DNA of 23,596 nt, from positions 1 to 23,596 of the IMG/VR virus record IMGVR_UViG_3300031568_000004. One strand, given 5' to 3'. This document shows positions 9,090 through 12,137 of this stretch, in pieces. The notes beneath the pieces were generated by a model. The model saw nothing but the letters and a program-made list of their open reading frames with translations, was not told the DNA's origin and searched no databases. This stretch comes from a virus. Each line of letters begins with the position of its first letter. The first letter of the stretch is position 1. Both the position numbers and the translations under genes were made by a program.

Positions 9090-9920
9090 ATGTTTGCAAG
9101 CTGGTACACCCCCCGCCCGTCCGACCGCCTTGTGGCGCGTCTGTTGACTGAGCGAACAGATGACGGCGTGCGCGCGTGCATCATCACAGGCGCGCCTGGC
9201 GTAGGCAAGACATCGTTTGCCCGTGCGCTCGCCGAAGGCATGGGTGGGCGGCTGGTCGAGTACTACGCCCACCACTGGACTTCGGATGAGGACATGTTCC
9301 TAGCGGTCGATCCAGCGCGCGTCGCGGCCATTGCCGGCGGCCACGATATGCCGCTGGCCAAAACGTACCGCCGTGGCGCGCTGCTGCGTGCTACGCTGCT
9401 GTCGCGGCGCTTTCCCGTCGTCCTGCTCTTAGATGAGTGGGACAAGTCGCCTGAGCACTGCGACGCGCTGCTGCTGGAGTTCTTACAGTCCGGCACTGTG
9501 CACGGTCGCCACGGCGAGCGGTGGCAGGCAAACACGCAACAGCTCGCCGTGGTCATCACCAGCAACGGCCTGCGCGAGCTTATCGAGCCGCTCCAGCGGC
9601 GGTGTTTTCGGTACGAGATGCCATACCTGCCGCCGGAAGTAGAGTCCGATGTTCTTCGCAAGGCCACTGGCGCGCCCGTCGGCGCGATCAGGTTAATCGT
9701 AAAGGCGATGAGCCTGATTCGTGCCAACGGTCGTTCGTCGCCTTCCTTGCAGGAAGGGATGATGCTCCTGCGGGGGATGGCACTAGCCAGCAAAGTGGAT
9801 GACGTGCGCTTGCTCGTCCGCGGGTATTTGATCAAGGATGCTCAGGACGAAGGTGCGTTGAAGTCCTTAGGTGATCTTCCAGTTCTGTTGTGGGGAGAGT
9901 GGCGGCGTGGCAGTAAATAA
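9090..9920 (+). CDS. MoxR/CbbQ-type AAA+ ATPase
   Basis: The product has 276 residues. Walker A is GAPGVGKTS (34-42), Walker B is VVLLLDEWD (110-118), sensor 1 is VVITSN (to 159) and arginine-finger candidates are R170 and R171 in PLQRRCFR. A C-terminal helical lid follows. MoxR-type ATPases remodel target complexes together with a VWA-domain partner, and the next gene encodes one, overlapping by 14 bases. In phages this pair is uncommon; possible targets include a metal-dependent enzyme or a host or phage protein complex. The enzyme class is clear from motifs, the substrate is not. Confidence 0.85.
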   Translation: MFASWYTPRPSDRLVARLLTERTDDGVRACIITGAPGVGKTSFARALAEGMGGRLVEYYAHHWTSDEDMFLAVDPARVAAIAGGHDMPLAKTYRRGALLRATLLSRRFPVVLLLDEWDKSPEHCDALLLEFLQSGTVHGRHGERWQANTQQLAVVITSNGLRELIEPLQRRCFRYEMPYLPPEVESDVLRKATGAPVGAIRLIVKAMSLIRANGRSSPSLQEGMMLLRGMALASKVDDVRLLVRGYLIKDAQDEGALKSLGDLPVLLWGEWRRGSK

Positions 9921-11283
9921 GAAGGCCATAATACTTAACCCGTTGCGCCAGCCTTACGTCCTGCAAACGATGGCAGGGCGTCAGCGCATGACCATTTCTA
10001 TTGACGGTATAGAGCTGAATCTGTTTGTGGATGTTGCTGGCGACGTGTGGGCTTACGCCGAAGTCGTAACGCCTGCAATACAGCGCTTCTTATCGCGTAT
10101 TCCTCTCGCTCCTGCTGACGACGATTTGTCGTCAGCAGGAGCGAGCGCGGATGCGCTTGCGCGGGACGAGCAATCGTCCCGTGAGCCTAAGGGGTTGTGT
10201 TCTCTAGCGGATGCTAGTGAGAGCACTAACTCCTCGGCTGGGGATGGCGAACCCCAAGCAGAATCACCCTGTGATTCTGCTGGCGATCCAGAGTCGCCCC
10301 CTGAGAATCAGGGCGAGGATTCGTCCTCGAACGGCCAAAGCCGGGACTCTGAGACCGCCGAACAACATCCGGGTAGCGCCTCGTCGTCGGGCGACGACGA
10401 CGCCGAGGAGAGCGTGCCGGATGGCCAAGCGGAGCGCGATGCTTCTGCCGCGGCGTCGCACGCGGCAGAGGAAGCCACCAGCGGGGCGCTGGATAGCGAT
10501 GCTGTTCAGCAACGGTGCGGTGACGCCGTTCTGGCCGCTGGCGACGGTGCGCCGGCGTCGGAAAACATCCGGCGCACTTTCATCTCAAAAGCTCAGCTAT
10601 CGCGCGTCCCCAAGCCTCAGCACGGCGGCGCGTTTGCGCAGTTCGCCGACGTTGAGCTGGACCGCGCGATGATTGCTCGCGCGCGCCGCGCGTTTCGGCG
10701 CATGATTCTGGGCGGCGAGACGAAGCCAGGGCCGCGCTGGAACGCGCGCGCCATTGCAGTTAAGACCGCAGGCTACCTGCGGTCGTGGACAGTGGATGAC
10801 CGCCGACGCGAGTCGGGCCGACCGGCCTTGCTCATCCTGCCCGACGTGTCGGGCAGCATGGGGAAGCTCGCGCGCAGCGTCATTGCCTTTGCCGTCGCGT
10901 GCTACGGCACGCTCAGTGAAGGCGACATCGTGTGCGTGTCGCACTCAAACGCTGTTCCAATCGAGTACATGCCTGATAGATTGTCGGGCATGAACTACGA
11001 GCAGATTATCCAGCAGCGCAACGTGCGAGCTATCGTGATCGCAGCAGATCACGATGGTGAGAACACGTTCCTTGAACTTTCCCACCTTGTGCCGCGCGTG
11101 TACTGGTTGTCTCCATTCGGGTGCAACGACATGGAGCGCCCGCGCATCCGCGACACGCGCAAGGTGCTGGCCGACTGGCCAGAGGACATCCAGCGGCGAG
11201 TGATATACGCCGACGGATGCGGCGATCCAGACAGTTGCTTGACAGCAATGGAGATGATGATACAATTGGGGGTGCGTAACTAA
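9907..11283 (+). CDS. CobT-like protein with C-terminal VWA domain
   Basis: The product has 458 residues from the GTG at 9907, placed by its 14-bp overlap with the ATPase gene. Residues 1-66 form a small N-domain and 67-224 an acidic, serine/alanine-rich low-complexity linker. Then comes a VWA domain with the metal-ion site LPDVSGSMGK (DxSGS at 313-317). This architecture (linker plus VWA, next to a MoxR ATPase) is that of cobaltochelatase CobT and related complexes. Its linker DNA is a chain of hairpins (see 10105-10577). The final codons GTG CGT AAC TAA overlap a hammerhead ribozyme, whose cleavage point lies before the stop codon. Confidence 0.82.
   Translation: MAVNKKAIILNPLRQPYVLQTMAGRQRMTISIDGIELNLFVDVAGDVWAYAEVVTPAIQRFLSRIPLAPADDDLSSAGASADALARDEQSSREPKGLCSLADASESTNSSAGDGEPQAESPCDSAGDPESPPENQGEDSSSNGQSRDSETAEQHPGSASSSGDDDAEESVPDGQAERDASAAASHAAEEATSGALDSDAVQQRCGDAVLAAGDGAPASENIRRTFISKAQLSRVPKPQHGGAFAQFADVELDRAMIARARRAFRRMILGGETKPGPRWNARAIAVKTAGYLRSWTVDDRRRESGRPALLILPDVSGSMGKLARSVIAFAVACYGTLSEGDIVCVSHSNAVPIEYMPDRLSGMNYEQIIQQRNVRAIVIAADHDGENTFLELSHLVPRVYWLSPFGCNDMERPRIRDTRKVLADWPEDIQRRVIYADGCGDPDSCLTAMEMMIQLGVRN
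10105..10577 (+). repeat. chain of tandem perfect hairpins inside the VWA gene linker
   Basis: Consecutive inverted repeats of unrelated sequence cover this stretch: 10105-10145 (18-bp stem, 5-nt loop), 10144-10157, 10162-10181 (8 bp, GCAA loop), 10204-10217, 10239-10256, 10257-10281 (11 bp, 3-nt loop), 10282-10298, 10299-10313 (6 bp), 10314-10329 (6 bp, TTCG loop), 10332-10343, 10381-10400 (8 bp), 10441-10475 (12 bp with bulge), 10478-10492 (6 bp), 10500-10511, 10511-10530 and 10547-10577 (9 bp). Short loops of GNRA and UNCG type argue for folding as RNA. The chain matches the low-complexity linker (residues 67-224) exactly. Confidence 0.85.
10764..10784 (+). repeat. perfect 9-bp hairpin in VWA coding region
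   Basis: GACCGCAGG pairs with CCTGCGGTC across loop CTA. Similar hairpins follow at 10837-10856 (8 bp, over the metal-site codons), 10897-10912 (6 bp with a C(TACG)G loop), 10968-10992 (9 bp with one G-U) and 11032-11055 (9 bp perfect), so the hairpin density continues past the linker into the folded domain. Confidence 0.65.
11239..11266 (+). promoter_or_regulatory. promoter for the ribozyme-CRISPR RNA
   Basis: TTGACA (11239-11244), a 16-bp spacer and TACAAT (11261-11266) have the same hexamers and spacing as the main rightward promoter at 5978. It lies inside the last codons of the VWA gene. Predicted initiation is about 6-7 bases after the -10, at 11272-11273, exactly where the ribozyme begins. 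Confidence 0.72.
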
Positions 11284-11361
11284 GACGACCTGTTGCTTTC
11301 AAAAGTCAGATAGACTATCAGGTCTACTTAGTCTGATGAGGGGTGAATCCCCGAAACGCAC
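11272..11361 (+). ncRNA. type III hammerhead ribozyme
   Basis: The full core is present: CTGATGA (11333-11339), stem II GGGG/CCCC with loop TGAAT (11340-11352) and GAAA (11353-11356). Stem III is GTGCGT (11272-11277) with ACGCAC (11356-11361), a perfect 6 bp. Stem I is ACTAAG (11279-11284) with CTTAGT (11327-11332), then a 2x2 internal loop, then GACCTG (11287-11292) with CAGGTC (11319-11324). The cleavage triplet is GTA (11276-11278), so self-cleavage is predicted between 11278 and 11279. Stem III is the open stem, making it type III. The 5' strand of stem III and part of stem I lie in the last VWA codons and stop, so translation to the stop codon would disturb folding. Confidence 0.93.
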
Positions 11362-11363
11362 TT

Positions 11364-11421
11364 TATCCCGCCTGAGGGTCTAAGAGAACAAACGACTATC
11401 CCGCTTGAGGGTTTTTGAGAA
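11364..11421 (+). repeat. two direct repeats 33 nt apart between ribozyme and array
   Basis: Copies start at 11364 and 11397 and match at 21 of 25 positions, beginning TATCCCGC and including TGAGGGT and GAGAA. Each can form a small hairpin (CCC with GGG). They fill the space where a CRISPR leader would be and may be protein-binding or structured RNA units. Confidence 0.65.
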
Positions 11422-11425
11422 GTCA

Positions 11426-11607
11426 AGTTCCACGCTTCTGTAAGTGTGGCCCCTTTGAAGCAGCGACGACGCGGCCCGCAGGGACTGGGCGGAGATACGT
11501 TTCCACGCTCACAAAAGCGTGGCCCCTTTGAAGCGAGCGCGAGTTGTTAGAAGTGCTGCAGGCAAACAAAGTTTCCACGCTCACAAAAGCGTGGCCCCAT
11601 TGAAAAG
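11426..11607 (+). CRISPR. mini CRISPR array, three repeats and two spacers, no cas genes
   Basis: Repeats of about 36 nt start at 11426, 11499 and 11571 (spacing 73 and 72), leaving unrelated spacers of 37-38 nt (11461-11498, 11534-11570). Each repeat has a 7-bp stem CCACGCT/AGCGTGG with a 6-nt loop and ends in TTGAAG or TTGAAA, like the ATTGAAAC end of type I/III repeats. That orients the array with the upstream promoter. The first repeat differs at 8 of 36 positions, five of them in the loop and one in the stem that keeps pairing as G-U. The third differs near its end and is followed directly by a terminator. Spacer targets cannot be determined here. Confidence 0.82.
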
Positions 11608-11611
11608 ACAT

Positions 11612-11649
11612 GCGCCCGGTACTACTACAGTACCGGGCGCGTTTTGTTT
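11612..11649. terminator. strong intrinsic terminator, probably bidirectional
   Basis: GCGCCCGGTACT pairs with AGTACCGGGCGC (12 bp, loop ACTAC) and is followed on the plus strand by GTTTTGTTT. On the minus strand the stem is followed by ATGTCTTTTC. It separates the rightward operon and array from the convergent leftward structural operon ending at 11667. Confidence 0.9.
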
Positions 11650-11666
11650 CGTTAGAGGAGCACTCG

Positions 11667-12137
11667 CTATCGCCTGCCCAGATAAACCAAACGAATGTCA
11701 ACCGTCTGCAGCGTGAAGCTCCCTGTGCCACCAGTGTTCACAACGTATATCTGATAGTTCGCGCCGCCAGATGGAACGTTCACCAACCGCGTGCCGCCGG
11801 CAGCAAACGCGAACCCTGCGTGCAGGTAGTACGGCTGAACGGCCAACCCCCACTCGTGCAACGGCGACGCCTGCCGCATCAACACGCTGAGATTCCCTAT
11901 GCCGGTCGCGTTGCAGACAACATTGACCAGGAATCCGATAATGCCCGCCTGCTTGATTCGCAGTGCCTGCGCCGCTGAAACATACTCAAAGATGTTGCCC
12001 GATACTTCGCTCAATCCCGGAATCGCCAGCGTGATGTTGCCGCCCGCTGGAACATTCACCGAACCACTCCAGGTTGCCCGCGCTGTCGCAGGCACAAAGC
12101 TATCCCCTCTTTCCAGCAGGTCTATGCGCTCATTCAT
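11667..12137 (-). CDS. putative distal tail or head surface structural protein
   Basis: The product has 156 residues, rich in G, A, V, T and N with strand-like alternation throughout (NITLAIPGL, YQIYVVNTGGTGSFTLQTVDIRLVY), so it is probably all-beta. It is the last gene of the leftward structural operon and starts with a 4-bp overlap with the hub-like gene, where phages often encode tail tip or receptor-contact proteins. No specific family is recognised; the structural role is inferred from position and composition. Confidence 0.5.
   Translation of the reverse strand: MNERIDLLERGDSFVPATARATWSGSVNVPAGGNITLAIPGLSEVSGNIFEYVSAAQALRIKQAGIIGFLVNVVCNATGIGNLSVLMRQASPLHEWGLAVQPYYLHAGFAFAAGGTRLVNVPSGGANYQIYVVNTGGTGSFTLQTVDIRLVYLGRR

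Follow-up and report, generated by a model that had tools for sequence, protein, structure and literature searches.

The window (the whole 23,596-nucleotide stretch analysed) is a 23.6-kb IMG/VR virus record. On one side of it, ORF calling and a protein scan identified DnaB, replication protein O, AAA+ and VWA-like genes; the opposite side carries those for portal, capsid, tape-measure and tail. Between the VWA-like gene and a convergent gene lies a non-coding unit (positions 11239-11650) made up of a promoter, a hammerhead ribozyme, two hairpins, three repeats with two spacers and a terminator (Table 1). The preliminary description of a compact unit of ~410 bp lacking a cas gene agrees with these results, as all the parts lie where they had been placed and no cas genes were detected among the window proteins scanned. 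The TTGACA-16-TACAAT promoter matches at 11 of 12 positions. The terminator is also present and strong, but its stem is longer than the 12 bp originally described. The 3' end of the VWA-like gene contains the promoter and overlaps the ribozyme. The AAA+ gene followed by the VWA-like gene forms a MoxR/VWA-like pair in the phage (9090-11283) with a low-complexity, acidic middle third; the VWA-like protein has no match in PHROG or Pfam.

Table 1. Coordinates of the unit and its neighbouring genes in the window.
Feature	Position	Strand	Remarks
AAA+ ATPase gene	9090-9920		partner of the VWA-like gene, which follows it
VWA/MIDAS-like gene	9871..11283	+	ORF call; DxSGS motif read by eye
Sigma-70-type promoter, TTGACA-16-TACAAT	11239..11266	+	extended -10 (TGA precedes); hexamers conserved in relatives
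Type III hammerhead ribozyme (putative)	11272..11361	+	begins at predicted +1; predicted cleavage 11278/11279 (GUA^A)
Hairpin 1, ATCCCGCCTGAGGG	11365..11378	+	CCC-GNNNGA-GGG; pairs invariant in five phages
Hairpin 2, ATCCCGCTTGAGGG	11398..11411	+	CCC-GNNNGA-GGG; within GACT/AGTC in array-bearing phages
Repeat 1	11426..11461	+	degenerate, with AG start and loop TTCTGTAA; Cas6 cut predicted after 11453
Spacer 1	11462..11498	+	37 nt
Repeat 2, GTTTCCACGCTCACAAAAGCGTGGCCCCTTTGAAGC	11499..11534	+	most canonical copy; cf. type I-G array repeats of L007/L009
Spacer 2	11535..11570	+	36 nt
Repeat 3	11571..11606	+	terminal; handle mutated to TTGAAAA
Intrinsic terminator	11610..11650	+	stem 13-14 bp, T-rich tail
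Convergent gene	11667-12137	-	

The putative ribozyme displays the features of the hammerhead class, the conserved core CUGANGA...GAAA...UH and three stems, and consists of the elements GUGCG-U-A^A, CUGAUGA, stem II GGGG/CCCC and GAAA-CGCAC. Stem III is formed by GUGCG/CGCAC plus a U-A pair, the cleavage triplet is GUA, and the order is that of type III, open at stem III. Stem I (ACUAAG/CUUAGU) is extended by GACCUG/CAGGUC past a 2x2 internal loop. Energy minimisation returns the hammerhead fold (z = -3.0), which is retained in the 388-nt transcript, with base-pair probabilities still above 0.5 at 60 C. A type III descriptor search gave one match in the window, one in each of five relatives and none in 300 simulated windows, with no match elsewhere in the loci scanned, cellular I-G loci included. 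The core bases are all kept in the six phages, and the paired cells across the six hammerheads amount to 98.5%, versus 22-44% with the partners slid. Two compensatory changes were observed, one in a stem I pair (A-U/G-C) and one in a stem III pair (G-C/U-A). Because the covarying pairs number only two, the structural support rests chiefly on conservation; shuffle control (a) was modest, the covariation score being reached by 12 of 500 shuffles. The Rfam hammerhead covariance models gave no match even at permissive thresholds, only chance miRNA, snoRNA and leader matches being returned. Thus, the assignment as a hammerhead is founded on core, fold and conservation, and the long stem I insertion is a likely reason for the missing Rfam match. 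On this evidence the type III hammerhead claimed to start at the predicted +1 appears to be in place, with a predicted cleavage site. A circular RNA or retrozyme-like use was discounted in view of the single hammerhead per phage with no second copy.

The claimed array of three repeats and two spacers is present in the same orientation, which is consistent with the promoter and the terminator, and the repeats are 36 nt each. They belong to the type I-G (formerly I-U) family, GTTTCCACGCT-loop-AGCGTGGCCCCWTTGAAGC. A whole-collection scan of GTDB contigs found this family in four contigs of three MAGs, three of which contigs (L008, L009 and L010) hold type I-G genes, including Cas3g, Cas8g, Csb1, Csb2 and Cas4-Cas1. 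The exact phage repeat was not found in any GTDB contig, indicating that the host is absent from the collection or that its repeat differs. The repeats of Synechococcus OS-A/OS-B' do not match that of the phage (PMC2612747). A coding role of the array was rejected: the overlying ORFs are short and run across repeats, the phages differ in the VWA 3' end and the hammerhead fold is kept. The loop of repeat 1 (window 11426-11461, CTTCTGTAAG) approximates the reverse complement of the middle-repeat loop of the related phage L019 (L019:5883-5918, CTTACAGAGG), a relation that would result from inversion of the stem-loop at its site.

The combination of promoter, hammerhead, hairpin and terminator occurs once each in five further IMG/VR phage contigs, behind the same VWA gene. 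The sample numbers of the relatives (3300031517, 3300031767, 3300031776 and 3300031950) may stand for phototrophic mats of Yellowstone. Four of the six units, those of the window, L016 (= L004), L018 (= L005) and L019 (= L006), contain an array at the same place and of the same repeat family, with repeats of 34-36 nt and spacers of 35-37 nt. The adjacency of ribozyme and repeats is thus seen in four phages, the window included, which speaks for the preliminary description, since its lack from every relative would have counted against that description. L016 and L018 carry one spacer each and L019 and the window two each, and all six spacers are unrelated. Repeat 1, with its own loop, and the last repeat, with its mutated handle, are conserved in all four arrays, so the spacer turnover is confined to the stretch between them. 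The type I-G repeats, the conserved position, the unrelated spacers in four phages and the lack of a detected cas gene support the presence of a genuine mini-CRISPR array in the phage unit.

The remaining two units lack the array. L022 has the promoter, hammerhead, twin hairpins and terminator as in the window, and no repeats; in L027 the promoter and hammerhead are followed by a single hairpin and another terminator. A further contig, L028, has the same VWA gene yet neither the -10 nor the hammerhead. The retention of the ribozyme in L022 and L027 indicates that the hammerhead is the hallmark of a small phage RNA, to which the array belongs as an optional module, and a mutual need of ribozyme and array was dropped for the same reason. 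As read from these sequences, the shared role of the ribozyme is one that concerns the small RNA itself, not the array. Of the two direct repeats reported between ribozyme and array, both copies are present, but they are really hairpins that are found also in the array-less relatives. In the VWA tree L022 groups with L019 and L018 with the window, yet the L022 ribozyme is closest to that of L018; this disagreement indicates that module and gene have been reshuffled. The -10 is TATAAT in L018, L022 and L027, whose VWA genes stop earlier, at the TAA within this hexamer. At 11278-11283 of the window, and likewise in L016, the predicted cut interrupts the final sense codon of the VWA gene; a cleaved read-through mRNA would thus lose its stop codon in both. 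With four variants that have the array and two that do not, the role of the ribozyme can be told apart from that of the array.

Comparison of the relatives also bears on two readings in which the array has no function of its own. The unit might be a decaying, functionless remnant, a captured fragment of host CRISPR next to an inactive ribozyme-like fold; the first and last repeats are degenerate and no targets were found in the collections searched. However, the phages retain the ribozyme core, the promoter, the repeat stems and the terminator though the adjacent VWA protein is only 73-85% identical among the relatives, and the hammerhead shows compensatory changes, all of which makes this reading very improbable. 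Alternatively, the ribozyme could be a generic transcript separator that splits VWA read-through from a structured small RNA, with the function residing in the CCC-GNNNGA-GGG hairpins and the array travelling as a passenger. L022 and L027, in which promoter, hammerhead, one or two hairpins and terminator occur without an array, fit such a role, and gene-flanking prophage hammerheads are known (PMC3088659). It is nevertheless doubtful, since a promoter belonging to the unit stands at the ribozyme and most of the RNA may therefore not derive from the operon, and since the array found at the same site in four of six phages would be left unexplained.

The reading that we prefer, at even odds (a probability of about 0.5), is that of a phage small-RNA gene with a built-in two-spacer type I-G mini-array that would borrow the host Cas6g/Cascade, and whose ribozyme would leave a hairpin-capped 5'-OH end. 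Transcription from the phage's own promoter would start at ~11272, as judged from the promoter spacing, within the first stem III bases, and would stop at the terminator. The 5' strand of the hammerhead would thus consist of the first transcribed bases, and the predicted cut would remove ~7 bases together with the 5'-triphosphate, leaving a 5'-OH closed in the 12-bp interrupted stem I hairpin. The hammerhead may also sever the array RNA from VWA read-through mRNA. The host type I-G Cas6 (Csb2) is expected to cut after the GGCCCC of each repeat (after 11453, 11526 and 11598), which would yield two crRNAs that bear TTTGAAGC handles, together with an upstream fragment protected by the repeat 1 stem-loop at its end. 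The crRNAs would load the host I-G Cascade; their targets would most likely be competing viruses or plasmids, and they may in addition be rivals of the anti-phage crRNAs that the host makes itself. Competitors are proposed as targets because of the analogy with SPV1/SPV2, whose mini-arrays have the same position and different spacers (PMC6858448). The preliminary description had the ribozyme trim the array RNA to a 5'-OH end or free it from read-through mRNA. The anatomy fits both actions, but a ribozyme that serves the array specifically does not fit L022 and L027; a host Cas6 cut at the first repeat would probably free the guides even without the ribozyme.

In RacrIF1 RNA, a 5'-OH end is reported to confer more stability than a 5'-PPP end, inhibition comes from the product upstream of the Cas6 cut and a non-targeting crRNA inhibits too (PMC10651486), which makes the use of a ribozyme plausible with or without spacers. 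The same observations favour a Racr-like RNA anti-CRISPR, in which the repeats would chiefly sequester host Cas6/Cas7, the ribozyme-trimmed 5'-OH upstream fragment with the repeat 1 stem-loop would be the active part, and the spacer content would be minor. All four arrays conserve repeat 1 together with its particular loop, which is consistent with this possibility, as is the outcome of the spacer searches. No protospacers of the six spacers were found in eight related phages, nor in INPHARED, nor in two IMG/VR scans with merged pairs of spacers, as exact 26-28-mers for four of the six (all but L004_s1 and L006_s1); these searches recovered only the spacers themselves and chance matches. However, one repeat suffices for a decoy, yet two or three repeats flank full-length spacers here, and the spacers turn over among the phages while the repeats stay, suggesting that the spacer content is used. 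An anti-CRISPR acting mainly through its repeats is therefore a possible reading that we hold to be somewhat unlikely. All six spacers (window, L016, L018 and L019) open in frame 0 straight after the repeat, which suggests sense-read protospacers in coding regions but could be chance.

The mini-array reading can be compared with four known systems. Virus-borne mini-arrays, such as those of SPV1/SPV2 of Sulfolobales and of phages, similarly have 1-2 spacers, no cas genes, a conserved position and spacers that differ among relatives (PMC6858448, PMC11656645). Host-like leaders precede the SPV arrays, whereas the phage unit has type I-G repeats behind a 5' hammerhead and hairpins, and no reciprocal targeting was found among the phage units. 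With Racr and solitary repeat units the unit shares a phage promoter, a CRISPR-repeat mimic, the lack of cas genes, a small RNA and a would-be stabilised end on the product upstream of the Cas6 cut. However, a Racr is a solitary spacerless repeat behind a promoter, whereas the phage arrays have two or three repeats, real spacers and an initial ribozyme; in the Racr work a hammerhead appears solely as an engineered construct (PMC10651486). As in known prophage and phage hammerheads, the core lies in a phage intergenic region (PMC3088659), but its position is the predicted +1 of a non-coding RNA that continues into a CRISPR array, and it has a long stem I interrupted by a 2x2 internal loop and no Rfam match. 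The repeat family and the spacer length are those of type I-G CRISPR-Cas arrays, which differ in that the phage-borne array has 1-2 spacers, no cas genes and a hammerhead (none in the cellular I-G loci scanned). Consistent with the earlier claim of novelty, the open-access literature searched yielded only engineered uses and prophage hammerheads, and no CRISPR array transcript with a hammerhead of natural origin. The unit thus joins a putative self-cleaving ribozyme to a CRISPR guide array, a pairing not met before in that literature, and extends mini-arrays to type I-G. A phage hammerhead also gains a concrete candidate job, providing a hairpin-capped 5'-OH end on a counter-defence RNA.

The twin hairpins allow a broader, speculative reading, which is unlikely to be right: a composite anti-defence RNA in which the hammerhead would give a 5'-OH hairpin-capped RNA, the CCC-GNNNGA-GGG hairpins would be mimics of a repeat used by a second CRISPR system, and the I-G repeats would occupy Cas6g and supply guides against competitors. 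The second system would have a CTATCCCG...GAGGGATTGAAAC repeat; TATCCCGNNNGAGGGATTGAA was not found in 297 genomes from the phylum to which L008 belongs. If this were true, two CRISPR systems would be affected by one phage transcript with its 5' end set by a ribozyme.

A candidate solitary-repeat RNA was also noted in an unrelated siphophage, immediately upstream of the capsid gene (L023:13440-13491, minus strand). It consists of a promoter, the CRISPR-repeat-like copy CTATCCCGATGGAGGGATTGAAAC, the hairpin ACTATCCCGCTTGAGGGAT as second copy, and a terminator. No cellular array with a repeat of this type was found within the limited set searched. The first copy ends in ATTGAAAC, which suggests mimicry of the repeat of a second system. 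The second hairpin is identical to L016 over 19 nt.
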